NCBI GenBank assembly: GCA_032622095.1
Contig: CP136061.1
Coordinates: 558,001 to 622,000, forward strand
Reading direction: 5' to 3'
From: Siphonodentalium dalli
Taxonomy: Eukaryota > Mollusca > Scaphopoda > Gadilida > Siphonodentaliidae
DNA length: 64,000 nucleotides
Notes under the pieces: generated by a model
Seen by the model: only the letters and a program-made list of their open reading frames with translations
Database searches by the model: none
Told to the model about the DNA's origin: nothing
Part shown: in pieces, positions 5,351 through 52,000 of the stretch
Numbering within the stretch: the stretch's first letter is position 1
How the letters are laid out: each line of letters opens with the position of its first letter
Position numbers and translations under genes: made by a program

Positions 5351-5354
5351 TTAA

Positions 5355-5992: not shown

Positions 5993-5996
5993 TTAA

Positions 5997-6917: not shown

Positions 6918-7070
6918 GACAAACTTTTGATGCTGTTTGTTACAAAATCCCAGAGAACTCGTGTGGCATTGACTTGACCTGTACAACTCTCTCTGGAGGT
7001 GGAGGAGATAAATGTAGATGCACAGAGAGCACTAAATACTGGAATTCAGTCAGCGGTTCCTGTGTTAATC
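6918..7070 (+). CDS. Exon 1: long six-Cys module (C-type acceptor)
   Basis: Acceptor TTTTTCAG ends at 6917; donor GTAAGTAAACC starts at 7071. 153 nt, phase 1-1. The module begins QTFDAVCYKIPENS and ends TKYWNSVSGSCVN, with all six cysteines. It differs from the downstream consensus at several residues (DAV for GET, IPEN for TPDE, ESTK for DSNT/K, SVS for SGS), so it is an older branch. It has no minisatellite: the intron continues GTACAAATGATTT. Identical to exon 2. Confidence 0.85.
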
Positions 7071-16000: not shown

Positions 16001-19000
16001 TAATTTTATAAAAGTTATAATGGATATGTGATAGCCGCAAAAAATGAAATAGGTCAAGCCGGCAACGTATATCTAAATAAACGAGCACTGATATGCCTTG
16101 CTGGCAAAGTATATAAACATAAATGAGCACCGATTCGCCTGAAATTGTTTTAATTCCTGACATGCCACCATAATTATTCTATTACACATCCAAGCCTACA
16201 GAATGCCCTTAATCAAGTTTAATAGTGAAAATGACTCTTGCTTCCACATTTTACAGTACAAACCTTTGGTGAGACTTGTTACAAAACCCCAGATGAATCG
16301 TGTGGCATAGACTTGACCTGTACAACTCTCTCTGGAGGTGGAGGAGATAAATGTAGATGCACAGACAGCAATACATACTGGAATTCAGGCAGCGGTTCCT
16401 GTGTTAACCGTAAGTAAACCGTACATACACCAATAAATACTGGAATTCAGGCAGCGGTTCCTGTGTTAACCGTAAGTAAACCGTACATACACCAATAAAT
16501 ACTGGAATTCAGGCAGCGATTCCTGTGTTAATCGTAAGTAAACCGTACATACACCAATAAATACTGGAATTCAGGCAGCGGTTCCTGTGTTAATCGTAAG
16601 TTAACCGTACATACACCAATAAATACTGGAATTCAGGCAGCGGTTCCTGTGTTAACCGTAAGTAAACCGTACATACACCAATAAATACTGGAATTCAGGC
16701 AGCGGTTCCTGTGTTAATCGTAAGTAAACCGTACATACACCAATAAATACTGGAATTCAGGCAGCGGTTCCTGTGTTAATCGTAAGTAAACCGTACATAC
16801 ACCAATAAATACTGGAATTCAGGCAGCGGTTCCTGTGTTAATCGTAAGTAAACCGTACATACACCAATAAATACTGGAATTCAGGCAGCGGTTCCTGTGT
16901 TAATCGTAAGTAAACCGTACATACACCAATAAATACTGGAATTCAGGCAGCGGTTCCTGTGTTAACCGTAAGTAAACCGTACATACACCAATACATACTG
17001 GAATTCAGGCAGCGGTTCCTGTGTTAATCGTAAGTAAACCGTACATACACCAATAAATACTGGAATTCAGGCAGCGGTTCCTGTGTTAACCGTAAGTAAA
17101 CCGTACATACACAAATAAATACTGGAATTCAGGCAGCGGTTCCTGTGTTAATCGTAAGTAAACCGTACAGACACCAATAAATACTGGAATTCAGGCAGCG
17201 GTTCCTGTGTTAATCGTAAGTAAACTGTACATACACCAATAAATACTGGAATTCAGGCAGCGGTTCCTGTGTTAATCGTAAGTAAACCGTACATACACCA
17301 ATAAATACTGGAATTCAGGCAGCGGTTCCTGTGTTAATCGTAAGTAAACCATACATACACCAATACATACTGGAATTCAGGCAGCGGTTCCTGTGTTAAT
17401 CGTAAGTAAACCGTACAGACACCAATACATACTGGAATTCAGGCAGCGGTTCCTGTGTTAATCGTAAGTAAACCGTACATACACCAATAAATACTGGAAT
17501 TCAGGCAGCGGTTCCTGTGTTAATCGTAAGTAAACCATACATACACCAATACATACTGGAATTCAGGCAGCGGTTCCTGTGTTAATCGTAAGTAAACCAT
17601 ACATACACCAATAAATACTGGAATTCAGGCAGCGGTTCCTGTGTTAATCGTAAGTAAACCATACAAATGATTTGAACTAGTTATTTAAATCTACATTCTA
17701 ATTGATTCCATTAACTAATAGCAGATAGATGTGTCGGTAGATATACAAATATTTATGCCATTAATTGACTACTATTGTAACTAGAGATTTAACTTTCCAT
17801 GTGTGGATGTGGAGCTCAGATACATTCATGGGACTCAAATAAAAATCATTGTTTTATAGGTAACCAATAAGTGGTAAGACAGTAAAAAGTCATCATTATC
17901 ACAATTAAATGCTGGCTAACGACTCAAAAGCTTTTTGATATATTCTTGAGGAAATTATCATAATTTGATAATGTTATTTATCACATGATTAGCACTATTT
18001 TCCTATGTAATATTCGAGCATAATAGACACGTGCAATATCATTGCGTGCAATGACTTCACGCTGCCCTTTGCGCCAAAGTTTGCAGTTCGCTGGCTGCAG
18101 TTAATTATTGTACTTTTTGATAAAAATATAGCGATTATATGATCATGTGATAAAAAGTATCTCAAACTCGTTCTATTTTATACGTAATTTATCAAACTTG
18201 TCCACTAAATTCTATTTGAGCCTCGTTAAACCTCGGCTCAAATCGAATTTAGTGAACTCGGTTGATAAATGCCGTATAAAATTGTAACTCGTTTGAGATC
18301 CTCTATTTATAAATTATAACCTACAATGAAGGTCCGTCCCTTTAAACAATTTCAATAGTGAAAATGACTCTTGCTTCCACATTTTTCAGTACAAACCTTT
18401 GGTGAGACTTGTTACAAAACCCCAGATGAATCGTGTGGCATTGACTTGACCTGTACAACTCTCTCTGGAGGTGGAGGAGATAAATGTAGATGCACAGACA
18501 TCAATACATACTGGAATTCAGGCAGCGGTTCCTGTGTTAACCGTAAGTAAACCGTACAGACAGCAATAAATACTGGAATTCAGGCAGCGGTTCCTGTGTT
18601 AATCGTAAGTAAACCGTACATACACCAATACATACTGGAATTCAGGCAGCGGTTCCTGTGTTAACCGTAAGTAAACCGTACATACACCAATAAATACTGG
18701 AATTCAGGCAGCGGTTCCTGTGTTAACCGTAAGTAAACCGTACATACACCAATAAATACTGGAATTCAGGCAGCGGTTCCTGTGTTAATCGTAAGTAAAC
18801 CGTACAGACATCAATAAATACTGGAATTCAGGCAGCGGTTCCTGTGTTAATCGTAAGTAAACCGTACATACACCAATACATACTGGAATTCAGGCAGCGG
18901 TTCCTGTGTTAATCGTAAGTAAACCGTACATACACCAATACATACTGGAATTCAGGCAGCGGTTCCTGTGTTAACCGTAAGTAAACCGTACATACACCAA

Positions 19001-22000
19001 TAAATACTGGAATTCAGGCAGCGGTTCCTGTGTTAACCGTAAGTAAACCGTACATACACCAATACATACTGGAATTCAGGCAGCGGTTCCTGTGTTAATC
19101 GTAAGTAAACCGTACATACAACAATAAATACTGTAATTCAGGCAGCGGTTAATTCCTGTGTTAATCGTAAGTAAACCGTACAGACAGCAATAAATACTGG
19201 AATTCAGTCAGCGGTTCCTGTGTTAACCGTAAGTAAACCGTACATACACCAATAAATACTGGAATTCAGGCAGCGATTAATTCCTGTGTTAATCGTAAGT
19301 AAACCGTACATACACCAATAAATACTGGAATTCAGGCAGCGGTTCCTGTGTTAATCGTAAGTAAACCGTACATACACCAATAAATACTGGAATTCAGGCA
19401 GCGGTTAATTCCTGTGTTAACCGTAAGTAAACCGTACATACACCAATAAATACTGGAATTCAGGCAGCGGTTAATTCCTGTGTTAACCGTAAGTAAACCG
19501 TACATACACCAATAAATACTGGAATTCAGGCAGCGGTTAATTCCTGTGTTAATCGTAAGTAAACCGTACAGACACCAATAAATACTGGAATTCAGGCAGC
19601 GGTTAATTCCTGTGTTAATCGTAAGTAAACCGTACAAATGATTTGAACTAGTTATTTAAATCTACATTCTAATTGATTCCATTAACTAATAGCAGATAGA
19701 TGTGTTGGTAGATATCCAAATATTTATGCCATTAATTAATTACTATTGTAATTAGAGATTTAAAGTTCCAAGTGTGGAACTTAGATACATTCATGGGACT
19801 CAAGTAATAATCTTTTTCCGATTTTAAACCGTTCTTCTTTTTGTAATCAGTTTGTCCTGAATATTTGTTTCTAAATTTCTAGATGTATTTTTATTTCTTT
19901 TTTGCATGCCATTTAGTAGCACAATCACTAACAAAACATCAACTGAAAACATATACTGTTGACACTCTATGTATTCTTAAACCTAACTGTTTAACACTGT
20001 AATTGTAGGGGTATAACAATATTACACATATATATGACCATAATTATGAGTCTAGAGTTAATCATAACAAACATAGTTCATTGACATCAATACAAATATA
20101 ACAAAATTCTATCCCTAATCATGATTGGAGTCCTAATAAAAATTCTAGCAATAATACTAACTCTAATCATATCAACAACCCATACCATGAATATATCAAC
20201 ACTCATTACCTAAAAATATCACTGTCCATAAGGCCAACAGTTGAATGAAATCATTGAAAAAAAAGTTTGACATGACATAGTCAAAGAAGAGTGATTTTTG
20301 CGTTTTTGTTTGGAGTTTTCTTGTTTATGTATCATATGTAACAATCATTTGGACTATATTGTTGAACCTTGTCCTAATGTCCTATCATTTCTGATGGAGC
20401 TCTGAGAGTGATAACAGCGGAAAGCTGTTGGGCAGATGATAGTGCCGTGGGCCCACCGATGGTTATGAAACAAACCAATCGTAAATAATAATATAAAACT
20501 CGATATCTACATTTCATCAGAAGTAGCGGCTACTAACACAAGCAAAGCAATTATCCATTTACTCCAGAAGACAATGTGTGAGTCTCTCCTGTGTTTTATC
20601 GGTGAAAACTCACGAAGATTGCAATGTTTCAATATTTTGAAATATTTGATTCAATTTCATACATAGATGATATTTTCGCCACAATGGATTTATATCTGGC
20701 ATGATATATAGTTACATGAAAGAGATATGGATAGTTGAAAATGGTTGCTATAGTATGCCTATGGGAATGACCATCATTCGTGTATAAATACACACTGTTT
20801 TTGCCATAAGGGTAGTTGTCAAACAAGATATATCTTTGCTATATTTTACGTAGAAACAGTGCCATATATTCACCATTTCATAAACCAGCTAGCCTATATC
20901 GAACTCACTCCATGACTGATGAAGTATATATAATCTATGAACTTATAGGTATCATTCTATTTGAGTTCATAAGGTCAAAGGTCAGGGACATGTATAGAGG
21001 GTTTCCTTTGGGGTGGGGGCTGTGTTCACTTTGGGAATTCCAACTGCACCCCCCCTCATTGAATTCCTTTCGCATTGCCCCTTGCACTCCAACTGCTCCC
21101 ATACAGGCCTGATAGCTTTTTCTGAATGGCTCTTGTGGTCACTATAGCCAGATGGAAGACAGAACCATGGTTCTTTATACCCGGTATGAGAAAATTTAGA
21201 GATCTGATCCAGAAAATTGCATAATCCTAACAGCTAGTGGTCTAACTCCTGACAAATTAACATGGCCATTGGAGTACGTGAGACAAGGACACACCAGGTC
21301 AACCATGCATGGACCAGCCTAGGCCTGATTTTCAGGGCGAAGTGACTTCTCCCTGTCACAAAATAGGGCGAATTCAGAGATTTCCAGGGCGAAATGCGTT
21401 GGCAAAATTGAAATCCGACCGCACTGTAGTCGCCTATAAAAGGCTATATAAAGAAATTAGGAGATATGTAATATTTAAATTAAAATGGTGAAACAATGGT
21501 TCAAATGTGGAAGCTTTATGTTCAAATCATCACTCTAATAACTATGAATAATGTCCAAATAGAATTGTGAGAGAATGGTTTTGAAAGAACGGCATTTTCA
21601 CAACCGCTTATGAATACAAAAAGAAATAAGAAACGACGCTTGTGAATACAAAAAGAAATAAATATTAGACAATGCTTATGAATACGAAAAAAATGCTAAA
21701 ATACAAAAGAAATCTTGAACATTTTCACTCATTAAAAGTCACTAACATGGGATTTAATTTGTTTTCAAAGCTAATCTGGCCTTTACATAATTTAACAAAG
21801 GGGTGATGATCTGATGTAAGGTGTAGAGTTGTAATCTTCAGGTGTGATAATCTCAAAATCACAAGTCACTGGACACCTGACGATGTATTCACAGCTGTCT
21901 GCAATCAACACTCAGGTGTGAATGTGCTCCCAAATCGGATTAATACAGCTGTTAATAGTAACTATGGTGTTATCTACGACAGTGTCAATGGATAACTGGG

Positions 22001-25000
22001 TTCTATCAATGTTGGCAGTAAATATAGTGGGTGAATATTTTGCCGATTTTCTTAGGTAAACTTCGAAAATTTCAGGGCGACTTAAACTTTGCCGGCTGCA
22101 AAATTAGGGCGAAGTGAGCAAGAATAGGGAGACTACTTTGCCCACGTCGCCCTCTCGGCTGGTCCCTGCAACCATGTATGGTTCAGCCCAGGATGAGAAA
22201 ATTTTGAAACATGAACAAGACAATTACAAAATCCTAGCATCTATAGATTGGCGTCAAACTTTCCTAGTGTTGGAAATTTTAAATGTCATACCCCCCCCTT
22301 ATGTTGGAAATTTTTCAACTGATTACCATTTCCATCCACAATTTTGATCAGATGTAGTAAAATATTATTTTCTGAAACTATTTAGCAGTTTTTAGCTCTA
22401 CTTGTAAAGTTTGAGCTATTGCCATTGTTTGGTATCCGTTGTCCGTGTGTGCATGGAGACGTCCATCAACAATTTCCATCAGCATGGGTTACAAGTCGTA
22501 CCTTTTGTTGGATCATTATCAAATTTGTCGTGGCTGTTGACATTGACATGTAGATGGGAATGAGTCATTTTGGGGTCGTTTGGCAACAAAACATGGCCAC
22601 CAGCAGCCATCTTGGATTTCAAAATTCAATCAATTAGCAAGGGCTGCGACAGGCCTGAGTGTTCCTCTGATCATCTTGAAATTTGTTGTGTATTTTAATA
22701 TGGAAATGTAGATGGGAACGAGTCATTTTGGGGTCATTCAACCATAAAACATGACTGCCTGCAGCCATCTTGGATTTTACTCTTTGCATGACTAAATCCT
22801 TTGGCACGGGCTACAGGTCGTACCTTTGGTCAGATCATCATGAAATTTGTCATGGTGTTAATATAGACATGGAGATGGGAAACAGGTCATTTTGGGTCAT
22901 TCAACCATAAAACATGACCACTGGCAACCATTTTGGATTTTACTCTTTGCATGACTAAATCCTTTGGCATGAGTGAGCTACAGGTCATACTTTTGGTCAG
23001 ATCATTATGAAATTTGTCATAGCTCTTGACATTGACATGTAGATGTGAATGATTAATTTTGGGGTCATTCAGCAAAAAACATGACCAACAGTAGCCATCT
23101 TGGATTTCAAAATTCAAACTATTAGCACAGGCTACAAGCCAGAGTGTTTGTCTTATCATGAAATTTGCCATGGATGTTAATATTGACATGTAGATAGGGT
23201 TCAATAGTAGTTTTACTACATGTGTATATGTTTTCAGAATATATCATCTCCAAAGCAACCTTTACAACTTACACTGGCAATACATGTAATTCACTGCGTG
23301 ATGACATTTCGCTACGTGATTAGTGGCCTATCAAAGCACTCTAGTGATCTATTCAATATCCAGGCCATCAGGATTCACTCTGATCGTAAAATGTTTTGGC
23401 TGTTATTTTAACATTTCTGAATTTTTTTATGGCCAATTTTCAGAAACCTTTGGCCAAATTGAAAAACAAAATATTGGATCATCATGAAAACCGAAACTAA
23501 AACAAAAATATAAAGAGACCCGCATAACCGATAATTTTATAAAAGTTATAATGGATATGTGATAGCCGCAAAAAATGAAATAGGTCTAGCCGGCAACATA
23601 TATCTAAATAAACGAGCACTGATATGCCTTGCTGGCAAAGTATATAAACATAAATGAGCACCGATTCGCCTGAAATTGTTTTAATTCCTGACATGCCACC
23701 ATAATTATTCTATTACACATGCAAGCCTACAGAATGCCCTTAATCAAGTTTAATAGTGAAAATGACTCTTGCTTCCACATTTTACAGTACAAACCTTTGG
23801 TGAGACTTGTTACAAAACCCCAGATGAATCGTGTGGCATTGACTTGACCTGTACAACTCTCTCTGGAGGTGGAGGAGATAAATGTAGATGCTGGCTAACG
23901 ACTCAAAAGCTTTTTTATATATTCTTGAGGAAATTATCATAATATGATAATGTTATTTATCACATGATTAGCACTATTTTCCTATGTAATATTCGAGCGT
24001 AATAGACACGTGCAATATCGTCGCGTGCAATGACGTCACGCTGCCCTTTGCGCCAAAGTTTGCAGTTCGCTGGCTGCAGTTAATTATTACTTTTTGATAA
24101 AAATTTAGCGATTATATGATCATGTTATAAAAAGTATCTCAAACTCGTTCTATTTTATACGTAATTTATCAAACTTGTCCACTAAATTCTATTTGAGCCT
24201 CGTTAAACCTCGGCTCAAATCGAATTTAGTGAACTCGGTTGATAAATGCCGTATAAAATTGTAACTCGTTTGAGATCCTCTATTTCTAAATTATAACCTA
24301 CAATGAAGGTCCGTCCCTTTAAACAATTTCAATAGTGAAAATGACTCTTGCTTCCACATTTTTCAGTACAAACCTTTGGTGAGACTTGTTACAAAACCCC
24401 AGATGAATCGTGTGGCATTGACTTGACCTGTACAACTCTCTCTGGAGGTGGAGGAGATAAATGTAGATGCACAGACAGCAATACATACTGGAATTCAGGC
24501 AGCGGTTCCTGTGTTAACCGTAAGTAAACCGTACAGACAGCAATAAATACTGGAATTCAGGCAGCGGTTAATTCCTGTGTTAATCGTAAGTAAACCGTAC
24601 AGACACCAATAAATACTGGAATTCAGGCAGCGGTTCCTGTGTTAATCGTAAGTAAACCGTACATACATCAATAAATACTGGAATTCAGGCAGCGTTTCCT
24701 GTGTTAACCGTAAGTAAACCGTACATACACCAATAAATACTGGAATTCAGGCAGCGGTTCCTGTGTTAACCGTAAGTAAACCGTACAGACACCAATAAAT
24801 ACTGGAATTCAGGCAGCGGTTAATTCCTGTGTTAATCGTAAGTAAACCGTACAGACACCAATAAATACTGGAATTCAGGCAGCGGTTAATTCCTGTGTTA
24901 ATTGTAAGTAAACCGTACATACACCAATAAATACTGGAATTCAGGCAGCGGTTAATTCCTGTGTTAATCGTAAGTAAACCGTACATACACCAATAAATAC

Positions 25001-28000
25001 TGGAATTCAGGCAGCGGTTCCTGTGTTAATCGTAAGTAAACCGTACAGACACCAATACATACTGGAATTCAGGCAGCGGTTCCTGTGTTAATCGTAAGTA
25101 AACCGTACAAATGATTTGAACTAGTTATTTAAATCTACATTCTAATTGATTCCATTAACTAATAGCAGATAGATGTGTTGGTAGATATCCAAATATTTAT
25201 GCCATTAATTGACTACTATTGTAATTAGAGATTTAAAGTTCCAAGTGTGGAACTTAGATACATTCATGGGACTCAAGTAATAATCTTTTTTTTTTCTAAG
25301 AGTTTCCGATTTTAAACCGTTCTTCTTTTTGTAATCAGTTTGTCCTGAATATTTGTTTCTAAATTTCTAGATGTATTTTTATTTCTTTTTTGCATGCCAT
25401 TTAGTAGCACAATCACTAACAAAACATCAACTGAAAACATATACTGTTGACACTCTATGTATTCTTAAACCTAACTGTTTAACACTGTAATTGTAGGGGT
25501 ATAACAATATTACACATATATATGACCATAATTATGAGTCTAGAGTTAATCATAACAAACATAGTTCATTGACATCAATACAAATATAACAAAATTCTAG
25601 CCCTAATCTTGATTGGAGTCCTAATAAAAATTCTAGCAATAATACTAACTCTAATCATATCAACAACCCATACCATGAATATATCAACACTCATTACCTA
25701 AAAATATCACTGTCCATAAGGCCAACAGTTGAATGAAATCATTGAAAAAAAAGTTTGACATGACATAGTCAAAGAAGAGTGATTTTTGCGTTTTTGTTTG
25801 GAGTTTTCTTGTTTATGTATCATATGTAACAATCATTTGGACTATATTGTTGAACCTTGTCCTAATGTCCTATCATTTCTGATGGAGCTCTGAGAGTGAT
25901 AACAGCGGAAAGCTGTTGGGCAGATGATAGTGCCGTGGGCCCACCGATGGTTATGAAACAAACCAATCGTGAATAATAATATAAAACTCGATATCTACAT
26001 TTCATCAGAAGTAGCGGCTACTAACACAAGCAAAGCAATTATCCATTTACTCCAGAAGACAATGTGTGAGTCTCTCCTGTGTTTTATCGGTGAAAACTCA
26101 CGAAGATTGCAATGTTTCAATATTTTGAAATATTTGATTCAATTTCATACATAGATGATATTTTCGCCACAATGGATTTATATCTGGCATGATATATAGT
26201 TACATGAAAGAGATATGGATAGTTGAAAATGGTTGCTATAGTATGCCTATGGGAATGACCATCATTCGTGTATAAATACACACTGTTTTTGCCATAAGGG
26301 TAGTTGTCAAACAAGATATATCTTTGCTATATTTTACGTAGAAACAGTGCCATATATTCACCATTTCATAAACCAGCTAGCCTATATCGAACTCACTCCA
26401 TGACTGATGAAGTATATAAAATCTATGCACTTATAGGTATCATTCTATTTGAGTTCATAAGGTCAAAGGTCAGGGACATGTATAGAGGGTTTCCTTTGGG
26501 GTGGGGGCTGTGTTCACTTTGGGAATTCCAACTGCACCCCCCCCTCATTGAATTCCTTTCGCATTGCCCCTTGCACTCCAACTGCTCCCATACAGGCCTG
26601 ATAGCTTTTTCTGAATGGCTCTTGTGGTCACTATAGCCAGATGGAAGACAGAACCATGGTTCTTTATACCCGGTATGAGAAAATTTAGAGATCTGAACCA
26701 GAAAATTGCATAATCCTAACAGCTAGTGGTCTAACTCCTGACAAATTAACATGGCCATTGGAGTGAGACAAGGACACACCAGGTCAACCATGCAGGGACC
26801 AGCCTAGGCCTGATTTTCAGGGCGAAGTGACTTCGAATTCTCCCTGTCACAAAATAGGGCGAATTCGGAGATTTCCAGGGCGAAATGCGTTGGCAAAATT
26901 GAAATCCGACCGCACTGTAGTCGCCTATAAAAGGCTATATAAAGAAATTAGGAGATATGTAATATTTAAATTAAAATGGTGAAACAATGGTTCAAATGTG
27001 GAAGCTTTATGTTCAAATCATCACTCTAATAACTATGAATAATGTCCAAATAGAATTGTGAGAGAATGGTTTTGAAAGAACGGCATTTTCACAACCGCTT
27101 ATGAATACAAAAAGAAATAAGAAACGACGCTTGTGAATACAAAAAGAAATAAAAATTAGACAATGCTTATGAATACGAAAAAAATCCTAAAATACGAAAG
27201 AAATCTTGAACATTTTCACTCATTAAAAGTCCCTAACATGGGATTTAATTTGTTTTCAAAGCTAATCTGGCCTTTACATTATTTAACAAAGGGGTGATGA
27301 TCTGATGTAAGGTGTAGAGTTGTAATCTTCAGGTGTGATAATCTCAAAATCACAAGTCACTGGACACCTGACGATGTATTCACAGCTGTCTGCAATCAAC
27401 ACTCAGGTGTGAATGTGCTCCCAAATCGGATTAATACAGCTGTTAATAGTAACTATGGTGTTATCTACGACAGTGTCAATGGATAACTGGGTTCAATCAA
27501 TGTTGGCAGTAAATAGTGGGTGAATATTTTGCCGATTTTCTTAGGTAAACTTCGGAAATTTCAGGGCGACTTAAACTTCGCCGGCTGCAAAATTAGGGCG
27601 AAGTGAGCAAGAATAGGGAGAATACTTTGCCCTCTCGGCTGGTCCCTGCAACCATGTATGGTTCAGCCCAGGATGAGAAAATTTTGAAACATGAACAAGA
27701 CAATTACAAAATCCTAGCATCTATAGATTGGCGTCAAACTTTCCTAGTGTTGGAAATTTTAAATGTCATACCCCCCCCCCCCTTATGTTGGAAATTTTTC
27801 AACTGATTACCATTTCCATCCACAATTTTGATCAGATGTAGTAAAATATTATTTTCTGAAACTATTTAGCAGTTTTTAGCTCTACTTGTAAAGTTTGAGC
27901 TATGTTTGGTATCCGTTGTCCGTGTGTGCATGGAGACGTCCATCAACAATTTCCATCAGCATGGGTTACAAGTCGTACCTTTTGTCGGATCATTATCAAA

Positions 28001-31000
28001 TTTGTCGTGGCTGTTGACATTGACATGTAGATGGGAATGATCGAGTCATTTTGGGGTCGTTTGGCAAAAAAACATGGCCACCAGCAGCCATCTTGGATTT
28101 CAAAATTCAATCAATTAGCAAGGGCTGCGACAGGCCTGAGTGTTCCTCTGATCATCTTGAAATTTGTTGTGTATTTTAATATGGAAATGTAGATGGGAAC
28201 GAGTCATTTTGGGGTCATTCAACCATAAAACATGACTGCCTGCAGCCATCTTGGATTTTACTCTTTGCATGACTAAATCCTTTGGCACGGGCTACAGGTC
28301 GTACCTTTGGTCAGATCATCATGAAATTTGTCATGGTGTTAATATAGACATGGAGATGGGAAACAGGTCATTTTGGGTCATTCAACCATAAAACATGACC
28401 ACTGGCAACCATTTTGGATTTTACTCTTTGCATGACTAAATCCTTTGGCATGAGTGAGCTACAGGTCATACTTTTGGTCAGATCATTATGAAATTTGTCA
28501 TAGCTCTTGACATTGACATGTAGATGTGAATGATTAATTTTGGGGTCATTCAGCAAAAAACATGACCAACAGTAGCCATCTTGGATTTCAAAATTCAAAC
28601 TATTAGCACAGGCTACAAGCCAGAGTGTTTGTCTTATCATGAAATTTGCCATGGATGTTAATATTGACATGTAGATAGGGTTCAATAGTAGTTTTACTAC
28701 ATGTGTATATGTTTTCAGAATATATCATCTCCAAAGCAACCTTTACAACTTACACTGGCAATACATGTAATTCACTGCGTGATGACATTTCGCTACGTGA
28801 TTAGTGGCCTATCAAAGCACTCTAGTGATCTATTCAATATCCAGGCCATCAGGATTCACTCTGATCGGAAAATGTTTTGGCTGTTATTTTAACATTTCTG
28901 AATTTTTTTATGGCCAATTTTCAGAAACCTTTGGCCAAATTGAAAAACAAAATATTGGATCATCATGAAAACCGAAACTAAAACAAAAATATAAAGAGAC
29001 CCGCATAACCGATAATTTTATAAAAGTTATAATGGATATGTGATAGCCGCAAAAAATGAAATAGGTCTAGCCGGCAACATATATCTAAATAAACGAGCAC
29101 TGATATGCCTTGCTGGCAAAGTATATAAACATAAATGAGCACCGATTCGCCTGAAATTGTTTTAATTCCTGACATGCCACCATAATTATTCTATTACACA
29201 TGCAAGCCTACAGAATGCCCTTAATCAAGTTTAATAGTGAAAATGACTCTTGCTTCCACATTTTACAGTACAAACCTTTGGTGAGACTTGTTACAAAACC
29301 CCAGATGAATCGTGTGGCATTGACTTGACCTGTACAACTCTCTCTGGAGGTGGAGGAGATAAATGTAGATGCTGGCTAACGACTCAAAAGCTTTTTTATA
29401 TATTCTTGAGGAAATTATCATAATTTGATAATGTTATTTATCACATGATTAGCACTATTTTCCTATATAATATTCGAGCGTAATAGACACGTGCAATATC
29501 GTCGCGTGCAATGACGTCACGCTGCCCTTTGCGCCAAAGTTTGCAGTTCGCTGGCTGCAGTTAATTATTACTTTTGGATAAAAATTTAGCGATTATATGA
29601 TCATGTTATAAAAAGTATCTCAAACTCGTTCTATTTTATACGTAATTTATCAAACTTGTCCACTAAATTCTATTTGAGCCTCGTTAAACCTCGGCTCAAA
29701 TCGAATTTAGTGAACTCGGTTGATAAATGCCGTATAAAATTGTAACTCGTTTGAGATCCTCTATTTATAAATTATAACCTACAATGAAGGTCCGTCCCTT
29801 TAAACAATTTCAATAGTGAAAATGACTCTTGCTTCCACATTTTTCAGTACAAACCTTTGGTGAGACTTGTTACAAAACCCCAGATGAATCGTGTGGCATT
29901 GACTTGACCTGTACAACTCTCTCTGGAGGTGGAGGAGATAAATGTAGATGCACAGACATCAATACATACTGGAATTCAGGCAGCGGTTCCTGTGTTAACC
30001 GTAAGTAAACCGTACATACACCAATAAATACTGGAATTCAGGCAGCGGTTCCTGTGTTAATCGTAAGTAAACCGTACATACACCAATAAATACTGGAATT
30101 CAGGCAGCGGTTCCTGTGTTAACCATAAGTAAACCGTACAGACACCAATAAATACTGGAATTCAGGCAGCGGTTAATTCCTGTGTTAATCGTAAGTAAAC
30201 CGTACATACACCAATAAATACTGGAATTCAGGCAGCGGTTAATTCCTGTGTTAATCGTAAGTAAACCGTACAGACACCAATAAATACTGGAATTCAGGCA
30301 GCGGTTAATTCCTGTGTTAACCATAAGTAAACCGTACAGACACCAATAAATACTGGAATTCAGGCAGCGGTTAATTCCTGTGTTAATCGTAAGTAAACCG
30401 TACATACACCAATAAATACTGGAATTCAGGCAGCGGTTCCTGTGTTAATCGTAAGTAAACCGTACAGACACCAATACATACTGGAATTCAGGCAGCGGTT
30501 CCTGTGTTAATCGTAAGTAAACCGTACAAATGATTTGAACTAGTTATTTAAATCTACATTCTAATTGATTCCATTAACTAATAGCAGATAGATGTGTTGG
30601 TAGATATCCAAATATTTATGCCATTAATTGACTACTATTGTAATTAGAGATTTAAAGTTCCAAGTGTGGAACTTAGATACATTCATGGGACTCAAGTAAT
30701 AATCATTTTTTTTTCTAAGAGTTTCAGATTTTAAACCGTTCTTCTTTTTGTAATCAGTTTGTCCTGAATATTTGTTTCTAAATTTCTAGATGTATTTTTA
30801 TTTCTTTTTTGCATGCCATTTAGTAGCACAATCACTAACAAAACATCAACTGAAAACATATACTGTTGACACTCTATGTATTCTTAAACCTAACTGTTTA
30901 ACACTGTAATTGTAGGGGTATAACAATATTACACATATATATGACCATAATTATGAGTCTAGAGTTAATCATAACAAACATAGTTCATTGACATCAATAC

Positions 31001-34000: not shown

Positions 34001-37000
34001 TTAGCACAGGCTACAAGCCAGAGTGTTTGTCTTATCATGAAATTTGCCATGGATGTTAATATTGACATGTAGATAGGGTTCAATAGTAGTTTTACTACAT
34101 GTGTATATGTTTTCAGAATATATCATCTCCAAAGCAACCTTTACAACTTACACTGGCAATACATGTAATTCACTGCGTGATGACATTTCGCTACGTGATT
34201 AGTGGCCTATCAAAGCACTCTAGTGATCTATTCAATATCCAGGCCATCAGGATTCACTCTGATCGGAAAATGTTTTGGCTGTTATTTTAACATTTCTGAA
34301 TTTTTTTATGGCCAATTTTCAGAAACCTTTGGCCAAATTGAAAAACAAAATATTGGATCATCATGAAAACCGAAACTAAAACAAAAATATAAAGAGACCC
34401 GCATAACCGATAATTTTATAAAAGTTATAATGGATATGTGATAGCCGCAAAAAATGAAATAGGTCTAGCCGGCAACATATATCTAAATAAACGAGCACTG
34501 ATATGCCTTGCTGGCAAAGTATATAAACATAAATGAGCACCGATTCGCCTGAAATTGTTTTAATTCCTGACATGCCACCATAATTATTCTATTACACATG
34601 CAAGCCTACAGAATGCCCTTAATCAAGTTTAATAGTGAAAATGACTCTTGCTTCCACATTTTACAGTACAAACCTTTGGTGAGACTTGTTACAAAACCCC
34701 AGATGAATCGTGTGGCATTGACTTGACCTGTACAACTCTCTCTGGAGGTGGAGGAGATAAATGTAGATGCACAGACAGCAATAAATACTGGAATTCAGGC
34801 AGCGGTTCCTGTGTTAACCGTAAGTAAACCGTACATACACCAATAAATACTGGAATTCAGGCAGCGGTTCCTGTGTTAACCGTAAGTAAATCGTACATAC
34901 ACCAATAAATACTGGAATTCAGGCAGCGGTTCCTGTGTTAACCGTAAGTAAACCGTACATACACCAATAAATACTGGAATTCAGGCAGCGGTTCCTGTGT
35001 TAACCGTAAGTAAACCGTACAGACAGCAATAAATACTGGAATTCAGGCAGCGGTTCCTGTGTTAACCGTAAGTAAACCGTACAGACAGCAATAAATACTG
35101 GAATTCAGGCAGCGGTTCCTGTGTTAACCGTAAGTAAACCGTACAGACAGCAATAAATACTGGAATTCAGGCAGCGGTTAATTCCTGTGTTAACCGTAAG
35201 TAAAACGTACATACACCAATAAATACTGGAATTCAGGCAGCGGTTAATTCCTGTGTTAATCGTAAGTAAACCGTACATACACCAATAAATACTGGAATTC
35301 AGGCAGCGGTTAATTCCTGTGTTAATCGTAAGTAAACCGTACATACACCAATAAATACTGGAATTCAGGCAGCGGTTAATTCCTGTGTTAATCGTAAGTA
35401 AACCGTACATACACCAATAAATACTGGAATTCAGGCAGCGGTTAATTCCTGTGTTAATCGTAAGTAAACCGTACATACACCAATAAATACTGGAATTCAG
35501 GCAGCGGTTAATTCCTGTGTTAACCGTAAGTAAACCGTACAGACACCAATAAATACTGGAATTCAGGCAGCGGTTCCTGTGTTAACCGTAAGTAAACCGT
35601 ACAGACAGCAATAAATACTGGAATTCAGGCAGCGGTTCCTGTGTTAACCGTAAGTAAACCGTACAGACAGCAATAAATACTGGAATTCAGGCAGCGGTTA
35701 ATTCCTGTGTTAACCGTAAGTAAACCGTACATACACCAATAAATACTGGAATTCAGGCAGCGGTTAATTCCTGTGTTAATCGTAAGTAAACCGTACATAC
35801 ACCAATAAATACTGGAATTCAGGCAGCGGTTAATTCCTGTGTTAATCGTAAGTAAACCGTACTTACACCAATAAATACTGGAATTCAGGCAGCGGTTAAT
35901 TCCTGTGTTAATCGTAAGTAAACCGTACATACACCAATAAATACTGGAATTCAGGCAGCGGTTAATTCCTGTGTTAATCGTAAGTAAACCGTACATACAC
36001 CAATAAATACTGGAATTCAGGCAGCGGTTAATTCCTGTGTTAATCGTAAGTAAACCGTACATACACCAATAAATACTGGAATTCAGGCAGCGGTTAATTC
36101 CTGTGTTAACCGTAAGTAAACCGTACATACACCAATAAATACTGGAATTGAGGCAGCGGTTCCTGTGTTAATCGTAAGTAAACCGTACAAATGATTTGAA
36201 CTAGTTATTTAAATCTACATTCTAATTGATTCCATTAACTAATAGCAGATAGATGTGTTGGTAGATATCCAAATATTTATGCCATTAATTGACTACTATT
36301 GTAATTAGAGATTTAAAGTTCCAAGTGTGGAACTTAGATACATTCATGGGACTCAAATAAAAATCATTGTTTTATAGGTAACCAATAAGTGGTAAGACAG
36401 TAAAAAGTCATCATAATCACAATTAAATGCTGGCTAACGACTCAAAAGCTTTTTGATATATTCTTGAGGAAATTATCATAATTTGATAATGTTATTTATC
36501 ACATGATTAGCACTATTTTCCTATGTAATATTCGAGCGTAATAGACACGTGCAATATCGTCGCGTGCAATGACGTCACGCTGCCCTTTGCGCCAATGTTT
36601 GCAGTTTGCTGGCTGCAGTTAATTATTGTACTTTTTGATAAAAATTTATCGATTATATGATCATTTGATAAAAAGTATCTCAAACTCGTTCTATTTTATA
36701 CGTAATTTATCAAACTTGTCCACTAAATTCTATTTGAGCCTCGTTAAACCTCGGCTCAAATCGAATTTAGTGAACTCGGTTGATAAATGCCGTATAAAAT
36801 TGTAACTCGTTTGAGATCCTCTATTTATAAATTATAACCTACAATGAAGGTCCGTCCCTTTAAACAATTTCAATAGTGAAAATGACTCTTGCTTCCACAT
36901 TTTTCAGTACAAACCTTTGGTGAGACTTGTTACAAAACCCCAGATGAATCGTGTGGCATTGACTTGACCTGTACAACTCTCTCTGGAGGTGGAGGAGATA

Positions 37001-40000
37001 AATGTAGATGCACAGACATCAATACATACTGGAATTCAGGCAGCGGTTCCTGTGTTAACCGTAAGTAAACCGTACATACACCAATAAATACTGGAATTCA
37101 GGCAGCGGTTCCTGTGTTAATCGTAAGTAAACCGTACATACACCAATAAATACTGGAATTCAGGCAGCGGTTCCTGTGTTAACCATAAGTAAACCGTACA
37201 GACACCAATAAATACTGGAATTCAGGCAGCGGTTAATTCCTGTGTTAATCGTAAGTAAACCGTACAGACACCAATAAATACTGGAATTCAGGCAGCGGTT
37301 AATTCCTGTGTTAATCGTAAGTAAACCGTACAAATGATTTGAACTAGTTATTTAAATCTACATTCTAATTGATTCCATTAACTAATAGCAGATAGATGTG
37401 TCGGTAGATATACAAATATTTATGCCATTAATTGACTACTATTGTAATTAGAGATTTGAAGTTCCAAGCTAAAAGTCAGAGTGTTTGTTTGATCATCATG
37501 AAATTTGCCATGTAGATTGACATGTAAATAGGGTTCAATAGTAGTTTTTCTACATGTGTATATATATCTCCGTCAAATATATCTTGGACACTGAATAAAC
37601 TAATGGTTATATATTTCTTGCTTGCAAGATCTAGAAGATGCAGTTTTAAAAATCGGTACGAAGTACCTACAGTATGTCGCGCACTGTCAAACCTAAACAA
37701 CTTTACCTCTGGACCAATCGTATGAGTCCTTTCGCTATAGAAGCGAGTGACAAGTAAGTTTACGATCCTTTTTATTTCTTCTAGTCCCAAGATAAGTCGC
37801 ATCTTTCATCTGTTCATTTTTAATGAACGTTCTCTTTACGATATTGCGAATGACACCGCGCAGTTTCCTAATTTCGTGCACTAAGCACGTGTTTTCCAAT
37901 TTTCGGAATTCCGTTTCACAATTGTTCAACAATCTTTTATTCTACAATACTGTCTTATTAATGACTGCGGTCCGTGGGTGGATAATTTCATTAACAAATA
38001 TTTCAAGTTTGTTTTGTTTACGAGAATCACTTAAAACAAATATAGTTTTTTGCATAAAACAACCGATGCTCTTTCGAGTCATTCGGGTTCTCGTCAGGAT
38101 TTTTTAACACTGCACCAGGTGCAATATGGTGTTGGCATCTACACTAAGCTCCAGTTTGGACCCTGACAAAATCCTATCCAAACATATTGGAATTAATAAT
38201 TTACAATATTTTACATTACAATATTTTACAATAATTTTCCTCACGGAATGCTAGATAAAATAGCCACAGTGTGGCTTACCTCTTCCCTCTACATTGAACA
38301 TTAGTCTCAATGCTTTTCCGATGAAAACTTTGTAATGTTTTTTCCCTTTGACAGGTAGGGGTGCCACGATTAATCGTATATTCGAACCGTTGATACAGCC
38401 GATATTCAATTACCATCTGAGTTCTTTATTTCGGATGTCGGAAAGTACCGGACATATTTGGATACCCTGTTTGACAGTTTAATCTCCAATGGACAGGTTA
38501 ACGATCGTTGATCGTGCAAAGATATTTGTAACGCATTGTGCTCATTACTGATTACTGACATTTCTTCCCATGAGACAGGAGCGATTGCTCTCGCACCCGT
38601 ATGCACTCGCAATTTTCTATTCACGGGTGCTAAACATTTGCACTCGTCCACCTTGTCACAATGTTGGTGGTCACTGTAATTGTTGGATCAATATTGAAAT
38701 ATTTGAAGATATATTTAGAACATTTCCCATCTCAGTTAATTTATGGGCATGTGAAAGTGTCACTGGTATATCCCACATTGACCTTTGATTTGAGATAACC
38801 CCAACTTACAATTATATTACCGGTGCAATTACACCCGTCTTCTGCATTGCGAGAGAAATTAGTGCTTGCACGGTATTTTTGTCATGGGAAGGACTGTCGT
38901 GGTTGTTTCTGATACAAATTATTCACATGCAAATATTATGCACTACTTCCACTGTCCTTGCTATTAGATACGCTTCATCGATTCTAATCTCTTATTGACT
39001 ATCGATTATCAAGATCAATAATCGTGGTACCTCTACTGACGTGGCACCTTCTCTTACTTCCTCCATTAACTTGGACCCTCCGCTGGAGTCCGTTGCTGGA
39101 CATGCCTCCTCCCTCTGGGTCGCAGCCTCCTGAGCCTCAGCAGAGAAGGGCAGTGATGGTCGTCCAAGCCCAGCTACCACTGGTCCTGCCTCTGGTGCGT
39201 ACGGGTTCATTCCATCGTTGCACAAGCCGGCCACTTGCCGTAGCTACAACAAAATCGGTGGTCTGTAAAAGCTCGCAAGCCCCAGTGCTTTCGACACATT
39301 GCCTGCCTAGCAATTCAATGTGTCACCTGCCACTGCTTCCACTCCAGGGGATTTTACCGCACAGGTTCCGACCTGTCCTCCAATCGTCAAGTCTTTTCCG
39401 ACATCCGTCCCTCCCGGTTTGGGGTGGGCATGTATCCCTATTATTCACTTGTGTTCTTTCCTCCACCAGTGTGGCCTTGCTTTGTACGGTTTCTGGCCTC
39501 TTTTGGGCTCCTAGGCCAGAACTTAGACTTAGTTTCCTTTCTGAGGCTCCGGAACTTTTGCCTCGTCAAACCAGATGACCTGGTCGGGATACTTGCCCCT
39601 TTCCTCCCATCTCCTGGACGGACGGTGCTGTTCGGAGACGAGGACATGCTGTCACAACATCCCCTGCATTTGGCAGCTTTTGATGCGTGTCCGAGTTCGC
39701 CATGCCCATCCGAGAGTGCCTTCCATGAGGGTTATTTCGGATGGGTCAGTCCTTCGGTCTTAGGATAACAATTGCGCACAATTTTGCATACATTACCAGC
39801 ACAATACCAACAGCACAGAAAAAGGAAGAGAAAACGTGGCCCTTCTCCTGCTTCCTCCATATAAAAGGAGTTGAGTTGGTTGCTGGACATGCCTCCTCCT
39901 TATTGGTCACGGCCTCCTGAGCCATCTACAGAGAAGTACGCCTGTTTTCCACAAACGAAGGACTGGATGGGGCCCACATATCAAGAACAAACACCAACAA

Positions 40001-43000: not shown

Positions 43001-46000
43001 TCCGTAACATCGCGTAATTAGAGCTACCCATGTCATTCGCGGAAAATCTTAGTTTCACTTTCGGTTTCAACACAAACTGACCGGGAAACTGGAATAATTG
43101 CGCAGGTGTTTACAAACTTGCATTTTCTGAAGCTGACACAATTCAACAGATTCTGTTAATCTGATAGAATTCCAGTGAGAATTCCTGGAAATATTATTTG
43201 ATCTTTCAATAGGATTATCTGAATCTGACATAAATTCCAGGAATCAATTGCGCCGGTGATAACAAATGCCATGTGTTTAGTCGGCGTCTTGATACTTCAT
43301 TGATGGAATTCCCGGAAACTTCCTTCCTTTCACTTATCGGCATTGCAACTGGAACTGCATGTGTTTACATACGTTTTTTAAAGGAAATAAGGAAGCATAC
43401 AGGAAATGTTTGTGAACAGAAGCATGTTAGAAGAAATAGAAAGCACTTTCGGTTTAGTTGGCTTCCTTGTTGGGGAATTCCCGGAAATCTTCCTTTCACA
43501 TTGAATTCTCAGAATTGCAACTGGAACTTCAGGTGTTTACAAACGTTTACAAACTCAACAAACAACCAAATAAATATACAAATTTTAATAAATCATGCAA
43601 TTCACAAATAAATATGGAAACATACAGGAAATGTGTGTCAACAGAAGCATGTTACTGAGAAGAGATAGAAAACCACGTGTGTTATGAAATTGAAAATTGC
43701 CATCTTCGCTCTCGCGATGGTCATCTTCAACAACTTTGTATTAAGTTTTCCCATAAAATACGTTTTTCAAGGTAAATATTTTTACAAATTGCTATAATTT
43801 CGACATCATGAGGTGACTTTTTACCCCTTCTCATCAACATTTTTGGCGATTTTCGTATGCATAAAAACGGAATAGAGTCCGACCCTTATGCAAATAAACG
43901 ATTAGAAAATAGTCTTTTTATGAGAAAATGGTTTGGTGCATGCATATTTTATGCAAATGACCGAAATATGCATTTAAACGATATGCAATTAACTGAAATT
44001 GACTGTATCTCCTATAATAAATATCTTGGACACTGAACACAGTAAGGGCCCTCCCAGTTGGGATCAACATTCCCGCCCCGTGCACTCGGTCAAACGCATC
44101 AAACACACAGGAGGAAGAAATTAAAAGGATCGTAAACTTACATCAGTGTCCAAGATATTTATTATAGGAGATACATATTTTGGGTAAAAAAATATTATTT
44201 TTCAGAATATAGCATCTCCAAAGCATCCTTTACAACTTACTCTGGCAATACATGTAATTCACTGCGTGATGACATTTCGCTACGTGATTAGTGGCCTATC
44301 AAAGTGCTCTAGTGATCTATTCAATATCCTGGTCATCAGGATTCATGCTGATCGGAAAATGTTTTGACCGTTATTTTAACATTTCTGAAATTTTTTATGG
44401 CTAATTTTCAGAAACCTTTGGCCAAATTGAAAAACAAAATATTGGATCATCATGAAAACCGAAACTAAAACAAAAATAAAAAGAGACCCGCATAACCGAT
44501 AATTTTATAAAAAGTGATAATGGATATGTGATAGCCGCAAAAAATGAAATAGGTCAAGCCGGCAACGTATATCTAAATAAACGAGCACTGATATGCCTTG
44601 CTGGCAAAGTATATAAACATAAATGAGCACCGATTCGCCTGAAATTGTTTTAGTTCCTGACATGCCACCATAATTATTCTATTACACATCCAAGCCTACA
44701 GAATGCCCTTAATCAAGTTTAATAGTGAAAATGACTCTTGCTTCCACATTTTACAGTACAAACCTTTGGTGAGATTTGTTACAAAACCCCAGATGAATCG
44801 TGTGGCATTGACTTGACCTGTACAACTCTCTCTGGAGGTGGAGGAGATAAATGTAGATGCACAGACAGCAATAAATACTGGAATTCAGGCAGCGGTTCCT
44901 GTGTTAACCGTAAGTAAACCGTACAGACACCAATAAATACTGGAATTCAGGCAGCGGTTCCTGTGTTAACTGTAAGTAAATCGTACATACACCAATAAAT
45001 ACTGGAATTGAGGCAGCGGTTCCTGTGTTAACCGTAAGTAAACCGTACAAATGATTTAAACTAGTTATTTAAATCTCCATTCTAATTGATTCCATTAACT
45101 AATAGCAGATAGATGTGTCGGTAGATATACATAGAGGATCTCAAACGAGTTACTATTTTATACAGAATTTATCAACCGAGTTCACTAAATTCAAATAGAA
45201 TTTAGTGGACAAGGTTGATAAATTACGTATAAAATAGAACGAGTTTGAGATACTTTTTATCACATTATCATATAATCGCTAAATTTTTATCGAAAATAAC
45301 AATAATTAACTGCAGCCATCGAACTGCAAACTTTGGCCCAAAGGGCAGCGTGACGTCATTGCACGCAACGATATTACACATGTCTATTACGCTCGAATAT
45401 TACATAGGAAAATAGTGCTAATCATGTGATAAAAATATTTATGCCATTAATTGACTAGAATTGTAACTAGAGATTTAACGTTCCAAATGTAGAACTTAGA
45501 TACATTCATGGGACTCAAGTAATAATCATTGTTTTATAGGTAACCAATAAGTGGTAAGACAGTAAAAAATCATAATCATTATGAAATGCTGGCTAACGAC
45601 TCAAAAGCTTTTTGATATATTCTTGAGGAAATTATCATAATTTGATAATGTTGTTCTAAATTATAACCTATAATGAAGGCTGCACGTCTCTTTAATCAAT
45701 TTCAATAGTGAAAATGACTCTTGCTTCCACATTTTTCAGTACAAACCTTTGGTGAGACTTGTTACAAAACCCCAGATGAATCATGTGGCATTGACTTGAC
45801 CTGCACAACTCTCTCTGGAGGTGGAGGAGATAAATGTAGATGCTCAGACAGCAATACATACTGGAATTCAGGCAGCGGTTCCTGTGTTAATTGTAAGTAA
45901 ACCGTACAAATGATTTAAACTAGTTATTTAAATCTACATTCTAATTGATTCCATTAACTAATAGCAGATAGATGTGTCGGTAGATATACAAATATTTTCA

Positions 46001-49000: not shown

Positions 49001-52000
49001 AAGTACATGTACACATATTCGGCTACATGCCATCATCTCAGCCTTTCCATCATTGTTGAGTTAATTCTTTCATGATAAACATTCATTGCATTTTGGAAGC
49101 TTCAATATTCACCGATAACATGCCCCATATTGTTTTTGAGTTCATTGGCACCACTGTCAATCATTCGCAGCAGGCTTTTGATCTGCAGTCTGTCAGTAAA
49201 TGTGACGAATCATTGGATACCACGTCGATTACACATGTACATGTATGTGTTATCATATCTTCATGAAGATTTCAAATGACAGCGGACCATTTGGCGTACA
49301 GGGGGATACAGGTAATCAACCTTTAATCAGATATGATGCTGAATATTTAATATTAAATATTCAAAGAACCCATGTACATTGCGATGTGACCTCAAAGTTT
49401 TTTGTCTCAATTAATTACATCTCCATTAATTTGTGCAGTGCGATCAACGTGATCTACATTTATTTATTAGTTTTTTTTCCGGAACCAATCATGCATTACT
49501 GTGCCTCCCACATTGCATTATGTTGGCAACGTTCCATTTTGTTGACTGTTATCTCGACTGCGTTTGTTGTGTTGACAGTTACCTCGACCCCGTTATTCCG
49601 ACCGCGTTATTTTGCATTGATGGTTACATCGATTGCATCGGAGTAACGTTACAACCGCGTTGGAGTAACGTTATGACCACGTTGCATTAACGTGAGAACT
49701 GTGTTGATGGTAAATTCTCAATGCAGTCTCAACTAAGTTCAAACACGGTCAAGAGGGACATTAATTTTGAGAGGATCTGTAAGTGGTAAGACAGTAAAAA
49801 GTCATAATCACAATGAAATGCTGGCTAACGACTCAAAAGCTTTTTGATATATTCTTGATGAAATTATCATAATTTGATAATGTTATTTCTGAATTATAAC
49901 CTACAATGAAGGTCTGTCCCTTTAATCAATTTCAATAATGAAAATGACTGTTGCTTACACATCAATAAATACTGGAATTCAGGCAGCGGTTCCTGTGTTA
50001 ATCGTAAGTAAACCATACAAATGATTTGAAGTAGTTATTTAAATCTCCATTCTAATTTGTTCCATTAACTAATTGCAGATAGATATGGTGGTAGATATAC
50101 AAATATTTATGCCATTAATTGACTGCTATTGTAATTAGAGATTTAAAGTTCCAAGTGTTGAACTTAGATACATTCATGGGACTCAAATAAAAATCATTGT
50201 TTTATAGGTAACCAATAAGGGGTAAGACAGTAAAAAGTCATAATCACAATAAAATGCTGGCTAACGACTGAAAAGCTTTTTGATATATTCTTGATGAAAT
50301 TATCATAATCTGATAATGTTATTTCTAAATTATAACCTACAATGAAGGTCCGTTCCTTTAATCAATTTCAATAGTGAAAATGACTCTTGCTTCCACATTT
50401 TTCAGTACAAACCTTTGGTGAGACTTGTTACAAAACCCCAGATGAATCGTGTGGCATTGACTTGACCTGTACAACTCTCTCTGGAGGTGGAGGAGATAAA
50501 TGTAGATGCACAGACAGCAATAAATACTGGAATTCAGGCAGCGGCTCCTGTGTTAACCGTAAGTAAACCGTACAGACACCAATAAATACTGGAATTCAGG
50601 CAGCGGTTCCTGTGTTAATTGTAAGTAAACCGTACAAATGATTTGAACTAGTTATTTAAATCTCCATTCTAATTGATTCCATTAACTAATTAATAAATAG
50701 AGCATGGCTTGGAGTGAAATACGCCGATATAGTGCATAGTGAGGTTGTGTAGTTCACGACGCGAAGCGGAGTGAACTACACAACCGCACTATGCACTATA
50801 TCGGCGTATTTCACGACAAGTCATGCTCTAATTATTATATTGTATCGAACAAATGCAGAAACTAGAATGCACTCAGAGAGATGCCAACGTGCGCAAAAAT
50901 GTAATAAACAATAATTTAAAAAATAATTTCACTGTATTTTACTTAATTTATTTAATTTAATTTAATGTTAGCAAAAAAAGACAATTACCATTTCTCATTT
51001 CATCACAGATAAAAGGCAAATTACTATATTAATCATTTAAGTAATTAAAACCAATTCCATGTTGCCGAAAAGATGAGACTTTAATATCGATTACATTTTT
51101 TTCAGCGGCATATTTTCATTTTCATTTTCCGATAGTCAAAGTTGACCAAAGGAGCAATTATAAGAAATAATTAGTACTATTTTTGTAAATATTGATAGCA
51201 GTCAATATGCAACAATACATATCAATAATTAATCAATAACGATCATTGTATGTAATAATAAACTCTTAAAACGGTGTTTGTGTTAACAAATGAGTTTTGT
51301 TTTGTGTTACGTCATTCGTCGTATTTGACCCGGAACTCTGCTGAAGGTTAGGCTATTCAGCATATTGCGTCGAATTACAAAATCGCGTTTTGAATGTCTC
51401 TCTTTTCCCGCACGATAAAAAGAGGTCTTCGCACGAACCAAAAATGATAAAACTTCCCAATTATAAGTGAAAATACCCAAATGAAGGAGTCTATGTAGGT
51501 CCCGAAGGAGTCTATAGACTCTTTGATGTATATTTCTGATGGAGAAAATGTAGGTCGATCTATTTTTGTCATAACTCTGACGAATTTTGACCTGGGAGAA
51601 AAAATCGAAATCGAGGCCAACTACGAGCATGCCAGTTTTAAATATAGAAACAGGGAATCCTGACAAATGGCGATATCGGAGACAAACAAATAAACGAAAA
51701 CAACACATAAAATAAACATAGCAAAAACGCGGCACAGTAAAAATGTCAGAACGCCACGAGGTTTTACGTCGTTTTTGGTGACGTCATGGAGTGTGACACC
51801 AAGCTACCAAGCTACCAAGCTACGAATCTGTCTGATCGCCATACTGTTGCGCGAGCGCACGTAATTAAAGGCAAACCAGTGGGCAAACACCATTTTTTTT
51901 AAAAGAAAAAAAAATAATATGTAAAAAAAAAAAAAAAAATTAAAAATTTCTCTTTGTTCAGGTTTGTTTGTTTGTTTTTGTTTAATTAATTCTTTGTAAT

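Follow-up and report, generated by a model that had tools for sequence, protein, structure and literature searches.

Repeated 5' splice sites behind eight copies of a predicted exon in the scaphopod Siphonodentalium dalli, a large case of minisatellites at exon-intron borders

In amphioxus, tandem repeats known as mirages span exon-intron borders; they are described in Adh3 and in the globin genes BflGb6 and BflGb9 (PMC3087553) and, in a second account, in troponin C and, as imperfect mirages, in PGBD5 (PMC3902484). Their units are given as 10 to 72 bp in Adh3 and about 150 to 160 bp in the globins, with unstable array length (PMC3087553), and the available parts of both accounts report that mirages do not disturb splicing (PMC3087553, PMC3902484). 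In human IFI6 (6-16), two downstream repeat units of a minisatellite are reported to be used as donors, giving three mRNAs (PMC4526556), and internal tandem repeats or minisatellites are reported at exon-intron boundaries in human segmental duplications (PMC2812944). Here, we describe a 64,000-nt window of the genome of Siphonodentalium dalli (C1:558001-622000, where C1 is contig CP136061.1; assembly of 2.23 Gb in 9 contigs, which exceeds the size of amphioxus genomes) in which eight copies of one predicted exon are each followed by an array that repeats the 5' splice site, or donor, of that exon.

Fourteen heads of the exon were found on the + strand of the window, comprising 12 complete copies and 2 that are cut before the donor. 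A complete copy is 153 nt long, is in phase 1 at entry and exit, and would encode a 51-residue Cys-rich module (...TCYKTPDESCGIDLTCTTLSGGGGDKCRCTDSN.YWNSGSGSCVN); its status as an exon was predicted from its frame, its borders, and homology within the genome. Ninety-five exon-end units were counted in the window, 90 of them in eight arrays that hold, in order, 21, 18, 10, 9, 22, 5, 3, and 2 units, which leaves 82 extra units beyond the first of each array. As located by unit search and Tandem Repeats Finder (TRF), the copy at 16257..16409 (first donor 16410) is followed by 20 extra units at 16423..17662, the copy at 18390..18542 (donor 18543) by 17 units of mixed 62 and 66 nt at 18556..19633, the copy at 24367..24519 (donor 24520) by 9 units at 24533..25106, and the copy at 29848..30000 (donor 30001) by 8 units, 2 of them without GT, at 30014..30525. 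Further along the same strand, the copy at 34667..34819 (donor 34820) is followed by 21 extra units at 34833..36186, the copy at 36908..37060 (donor 37061) by 4 units, 1 without GT, at 37074..37329, the copy at 44757..44909 (donor 44910) by 2 units at 44923..45046, and the copy at 50406..50558 (donor 50559) by a single extra unit at 50572..50633. The other four complete copies have a single donor each (6918..7070, 14266..14418, 45740..45892, and 56101..56253, with donors at 7071, 14419, 45893, and 56254).

A reading of the window from its letters alone (the sequence-only reading) had claimed eight exons with arrays and 82 extra units, all but three of which keep GT, and these counts proved exact on unit search. 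The three extra donors that have lost GT, at 30125, 30323, and 37185, read CATAAG instead of CGTAAG. The same reading had given the monomer as exactly 49 nt of exon 3' end plus 13 nt of intron start; alignment of the monomers upheld this structure for the 62-nt units, but 29 of the 82 extras carry a TTAA insertion that makes them 66 nt long (53 plus 13). Altogether, 38 distinct unit types occur among the 90 arrayed units, and their order differs between arrays. The arrays were recovered independently by TRF, with a 93 to 97% match in six rows and with the first two arrays merged in one row at 78%. The arrays are not a chance feature; the eight are not independent of one another, since they are carried on segmental duplications.

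These arrays resemble the amphioxus mirages, as far as the published accounts available to us describe them, in that the repeat unit spans an exon-intron border (in all 90 units of the eight arrays, on an exon that is predicted) and in that the splice signals lie within the units (GT in 79 of the 82 extras). They differ in scale, since BflGb6 is described with 6 and 3 units in two haplotypes, against up to 22 units for the window gene and 42 donors for another exon of the same genome (the ANTH exon below), and they differ in lying at eight exons of one gene through cassette duplication; moreover, splicing was checked in amphioxus, whereas the present arrays are known from sequence alone. The IFI6 minisatellite, in the portion of the report available, is likewise one whose units provide donors, but it is a single locus, whereas here units of 62 to 66 nt occur at eight exons and a stop is met beyond the first donor. 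Turri et al. are said to have reported in 1995 that a minisatellite supplies multiple splice donors in human 6-16/IFI6, and the unit of this minisatellite is reportedly about 12 bp. The human genes of PMC2812944 share with the window gene the expansion of minisatellites at exon-intron borders of recently duplicated genes, but those repeats alter introns, with 27 intron modifications counted, and in most cases there are alternative transcripts in which the repeat is retained as exon sequence; arrays of equal donors are not described in the available part of that account. The sequence-only reading had set the arrays apart from tandem duplicate splice sites by their scale along one gene; a belief that nothing like them is known is not supported, because the amphioxus mirages and human IFI6 are of the same kind, but no report of donor arrays on the scale of the window gene was found in the literature searched, most subscription papers being outside its reach.

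First and later donors were not separated by predicted pairing with U1, which is -7.3 kcal/mol for 8/8 array-first donors and 75/82 extra donors, in agreement with the earlier claim that every monomer adds a whole donor that is the equal of the first one. The reading frames did separate them. The products of the eight first donors have no in-frame stop, whereas one was found in every product of a later position; these positions number 20, 17, 9, 8, 21, 4, 2, and 1 in the successive arrays, and three of the total lack GT. The TTAA insertion, which would put a stop in the coding frame, points the same way, being found in 29/82 extras versus 0/8 array-first units (P = 0.0505) or versus 0/13 first or only units, one of them a headless remnant (P = 0.008). 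On the evidence of the frames, and not of donor strength, it is likely that the first donor gives the coding product. In folding predictions, donor openness was lower in 66-nt units (0.044 versus 0.096; one unit beyond the 29 was counted as 66 nt).

We consider it probable that the arrays are mirage-type minisatellites in which splicing takes place at the first donor, with the extra donors as near-neutral intronic passengers, and that the same process has acted at many exon borders across the genome. An old 62-nt tandem duplication across the 3' border of the exon, comprising 49 nt of exon and 13 nt of intron, would have given rise to a dimer, which would have been lengthened and shortened in the window gene by unequal exchange or slippage; the arrays would have been multiplied along the gene as exon cassettes of several kb were duplicated. 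The first donor, which closes the full coding exon, would be spliced, and every later unit would be intronic. We propose that the extra donors have remained through being almost harmless and not through being needed. A quite different use of the units would be internal splicing, with the AG of AATTCAG as the acceptor, by which each 62-nt unit would become a 21-nt in-phase micro-exon. From this AG to the next donor there are indeed 21 nt in 62-nt units (by eye), and the phase is kept, but the scheme would require introns of 41 nt that have no clear pyrimidine tract, and the 29 units of 66 nt would yield 25 nt and shift the frame, and we regard it as extremely unlikely. As to the Rogers model, in which introns are created from duplicated AG/GT, the units contain a donor but only a weak AG, with an intron of 41 nt (by eye).

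The spread of the arrays along the gene can be followed in the surrounding DNA. Three pairs of segments (19.0-25.0/24.5-30.5, 19.1-23.9/30.0-34.8, and 24.5-29.4/30.0-34.8 kb) are 97.5 to 98.9% identical over 4.8 to 6.1 kb, and, in a comparison of the paralogous arrays that they carry, the array at 18.5 kb has 18 units, that at 24.5 kb has 10, and that at 30.0 kb has 9, with an order of units that is partly common. The near identity of the segments and the unlike lengths of their arrays indicate that cassettes were copied together with their arrays and that array lengths were altered afterwards. A 7.35-kb tandem duplication (window 535-7884 and 7880-15232) is 99.8% identical and has one exon copy in each half, so that the copy at 14266 is the duplicate of that at 6918; it is either very recent or an assembly duplicate. 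Together with the near-identical cassettes, this duplication is a sign of risk that the arrays themselves, or their unit number, might be an assembly artefact. Against an artefact stand the 38 unit types in differing orders, the presence of diverged dimers at three further loci, and the occurrence at other genes of arrays that are unlike these in sequence, and we judge it very unlikely.

Of the 58 matches that the monomer gave in a genome-wide search, 49 belong to the window gene; the other 9 are at paralogous loci, on C1 and C3. The reading covered eight paralogous exons at six loci (two each at L005 and L007 and one each at L006, L008, L009, and L014), and seven of the eight have a single adjoining donor, the second L005 exon having a dimer; at L006 and L008, a headless dimer lies deeper in the intron. 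The donors of the dimers at L005, L006, and L008 are 62, 62, and 61 nt apart, the later donor of L005 being GTAAGAG and the earlier donor of L008 lacking GT. At unit position 4, the second units of all three dimers and the consensus extra unit of the window have T, whereas five aligned exon-end units have G; the L008 exon, which is outside the alignment, has A. Dimers of 61 to 62 nt with a similar junction at three paralogous loci point to one old dimer as the source, and it seems from these comparisons that, to the extent that the matches reveal it, strong expansion of this single dimer was confined to the window gene. The tandem exon array at C1:85.145-85.174 Mb served as a control, and in both copies read (L013) a single donor was found, which indicates that exon duplication by itself is insufficient to produce donor arrays. 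This paralogous gene (C1:85145385-85174218, of which L013 is part) has ten related-module matches, mostly about 2.07 to 2.08 kb apart.

Donor-border arrays were then sought elsewhere in the genome with three tandem copies each of CGTAAGTA, AGGTAAGT, and CAGGTAAGT, which gave 253, 2410, and 1467 matches, respectively, versus 1959, 2622, and 439 for the backward patterns. Since many of the matches come from long satellites, no enrichment was drawn from these counts. From among the matches listed, the 23 arrays outside the window that were distinguishable from one another were taken (6 from CGTAAGTA and 17 from AGGTAAGT), and the peptides of ten arrays, with L029 standing for L031 too, were scanned against Pfam. 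Four exons scored above the Pfam cut-off: LEM (L025; 6.8e-9), with 6 extra donors; plexin A/B PSI (L040; 6.2e-8), with 3; USP47_C (L035; 1.6e-12), with 10; and ANTH (L038; 5.9e-6), with 41. The ANTH peptide also matches solved AP180-type proteins (2e-12), and its exon is followed at C1:115565900-115571000 (L044) by 42 GTRAGT donors in steps of 66 to 72 nt, a number that exceeds every array of the window. The USP47_C model matches at one place only in the genome, where five matches follow one another in model order along the minus strand; the 11-unit array adjoins an exon ending at model position 52 and is thus placed between consecutive exons, the following one (46-94) lying about 2.5 kb on. 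Two of the five matches have an internal stop, one of these being below the cut-off, and the locus may be a decayed gene, although we think that the stops come from matches overrunning exon ends. A search of the PDB gave no match for the USP47_C peptide and chance-level matches only for the peptide of L039.

Eight more exons are plausible: the frame leading to the first donor is open, the exon end recurs in the units, and most of the eight are preceded by what looks by eye like an acceptor. Among these, L023 is EGF-like (E = 0.0018) and L029 and L031 are copies of one zinc-finger-like exon (E = 0.075), all below the Pfam cut-off; L033 has 11 residues, L026 (57 residues) had no Pfam match, and L034, L037, and L039 had no credible Pfam match. 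Behind L026 (C1:14498000-14500800, also L070) there are 17 AGGTAAGT sites in steps of 46 to 99 nt. Thus, among the matches listed, arrays lie on exons or plausible exons at 12/23 loci, or 11 with the L029/L031 pair taken as one. For L024 and L041, the array start is beyond the sequence read; for L019, the start was reached and no exon was seen, and L020 to L022, L027, L028, L030, L032, and L036 gave no trusted exon evidence. Against our own estimate that about 20% of AGGTAAGT arrays would lie on real donors by chance, 11/17 on exons gives P = 0.00008 and 4/17 above the Pfam cut-off gives P = 0.45; since that chance rate is rough, no enrichment is claimed for AGGTAAGT arrays. Ten loci were read longer; beyond the first donor, a stop was reached in 53 nt or less at nine of them and after 239 nt at the tenth.

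If the later donors of the arrays were used appreciably, exon ends would be leaky, transcripts would acquire early stops, and array length would tune gene output via nonsense-mediated decay. The equal predicted U1 pairing of 75/82 extra donors and the stop added by every later donor of the window would suit such a role, as would the two downstream IFI6 repeat units reported as donors (PMC4526556), but the amphioxus mirages of Adh, troponin C, and the globins are reported, in the available parts of the accounts, to occur without aberrant mRNA or disturbed splicing (PMC3087553, PMC3902484). Moreover, leaky use of the 41 extra donors on the ANTH exon would cost that gene much of its output. An ANTH gene is expected to be widely needed, and we find appreciable use of the later donors unlikely.

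Border repeats were also found on the acceptor side. The acceptor pattern, TTTTCAGG three times and of the same base composition as the donor pattern, gave 307 matches versus 191 backward, and 16 acceptor arrays were read among the matches listed, omitting eight places that look like members of one dispersed family and also arrays almost identical to two of the others. Pfam was searched with the peptides of 10 of the 16: DOCK TPR was above the cut-off (1.3e-6), Neur_chan_LBD was 0.3 bits under it, COR-B and FAAP20-type exons were well below it, and six of the 10 peptides had no Pfam match. Some acceptor-array exons, presumably LRR, PRMT, AOAH-like, and phosphatase in likeness, were not confirmed as such by Pfam. 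The DOCK exon, together with the donor arrays, indicates that border repeats occur on both sides of exons, so that the genome has both donor borders (four exons above the cut-off) and acceptor borders (one, DOCK) affected, as can be the case with mirages. On either border, it is the site adjoining the exon body that has to function.

Several points weigh against near-neutral passengers behind a used first donor. In the comparison of TTAA insertions, the first units are related by descent, and the test is therefore not a set of independent events. Some work in vertebrates favors, of two equal donors, the intron-proximal one; in the present arrays, that would be the last. In 3/10 other exons, a later donor lies ahead of the first stop, and its use would cause a frame shift in LEM or could lengthen the peptide (EGF-like and L033), which indicates that later donors are not always fatal. 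The T shared at unit position 4 is not universal: G stands there in 25/82 window extras, perhaps through exchange with the first unit. Finally, in exon-border arrays, donor columns were less often variable than other columns (3/66 versus 68/413; P = 0.0085), which pure neutrality does not predict.

This last result bears on whether selection maintains the donors as binding platforms of the U1 small nuclear ribonucleoprotein, for example, reinforcing exon definition or suppressing premature intronic polyadenylation. Variability was measured in the same way for exon-border arrays and for the non-exon arrays that the same patterns had yielded, anchored away from the donor motif, with L026 counted as exon-border and with the five longest of the eight window arrays as input; two other runs were made, one of which was biased, some units having been found through the donor, and one of which used crude windows. 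Arrays with fewer than four usable units were dropped (5/10 exon arrays, including LEM and plexin, and 3/12 non-exon arrays), L041 had no usable repeat call, and the non-exon set includes the related arrays L020 and L022. In non-exon arrays, motif columns were as variable as others (10/42 versus 37/171; P = 0.84), and the contrast between exon-border and non-exon donor columns (3/66 versus 10/42; P = 0.0047) would favor selection. With the window counted once, however, the exon-border comparison became 3/42 versus 47/241 (P = 0.077) and the contrast fell to P = 0.067, or to P = 0.10 when L024 was removed as well, the sequence read there stopping short of the array start. Within the window by itself, donor columns were not special (1/6 versus 15/56; P = 1). 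The CpG at CGTAAGT may also add to the difference by raising the non-exon values. The repeated donors are thus perhaps less variable than other columns, as a weak hint from these alignments. Furthermore, arrays are lacking at 4/12 complete copies and likewise at those in L007, L009, and L014, and acceptor-border arrays are unexplained by a role for U1, which together make a U1 platform improbable to us. We give equally little credence to the broader proposal that minisatellites at exon borders form a genome-wide class, found in many unrelated genes, and that selection maintains their repeated 5' splice sites for binding U1, so that they are not neutral decoys.

With regard to the gene that carries the arrays, related Cys-rich modules were found downstream, in exons with a single donor and borders set by eye (58084..58213 and 61813..61941, + strand), and further modules flank the window on both sides. 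For this reason, we take the exon copies to be parts of a long modular gene on the + strand. The window modules matched no Pfam family above the cut-off, with a likeness to the EB module below threshold only. The two truncated copies without a donor lie at 23788..23891, where the exon is joined to intron at ATGC, and at 29269..29372, and a headless exon end at about 49960..50003 (start approximate), with a donor at 50004, is a remnant on the same strand. A higher-G+C insert of about 4 kb (window 37560-41740), bounded by inverted ends that share GTGTCCAAGATATAT (by eye), looks like a mobile element within the gene, and like ends occur at about 44000-44170. Other repeats in the window are a 40-nt minisatellite of 15 copies with a higher-order period of 201 nt (63083-63692) and a 44-nt minisatellite whose unit includes the donor-like GGGTAAGAAAG (435-698, 2039-2204, 7889-8029, and 9389-9554). 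Elsewhere, L010 463-1011 is an open frame with tandem repeats of ...SDTNSSVLFNTLFQWREC..., and C1:108127492-108128832 (L018) holds a copy of mitochondrial COX1 on a nuclear contig that is open under the invertebrate mitochondrial code. A search for molluscan haemocyanin gave no match, but neither did its control, which makes this negative uninformative.

Together, these results support the conclusion that the window arrays are a real feature and a large, well-preserved case of a known kind of repeat. The kind is known; what is new is its scale in one gene, the apparent source in one old dimer, and its recurrence in unrelated genes of the genome. Choice among equal donors has often been studied with two or three engineered sites. 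Here, between 2 and 42 near-identical donors stand one after another in natural genes, with acceptor arrays as the mirror case, so that exon definition and intron-proximal preference become testable by ordinary RNA sequencing. The arrays suggest, moreover, that exon duplication can carry border repeats from place to place in a gene and that such repeats can appear repeatedly within one genome.

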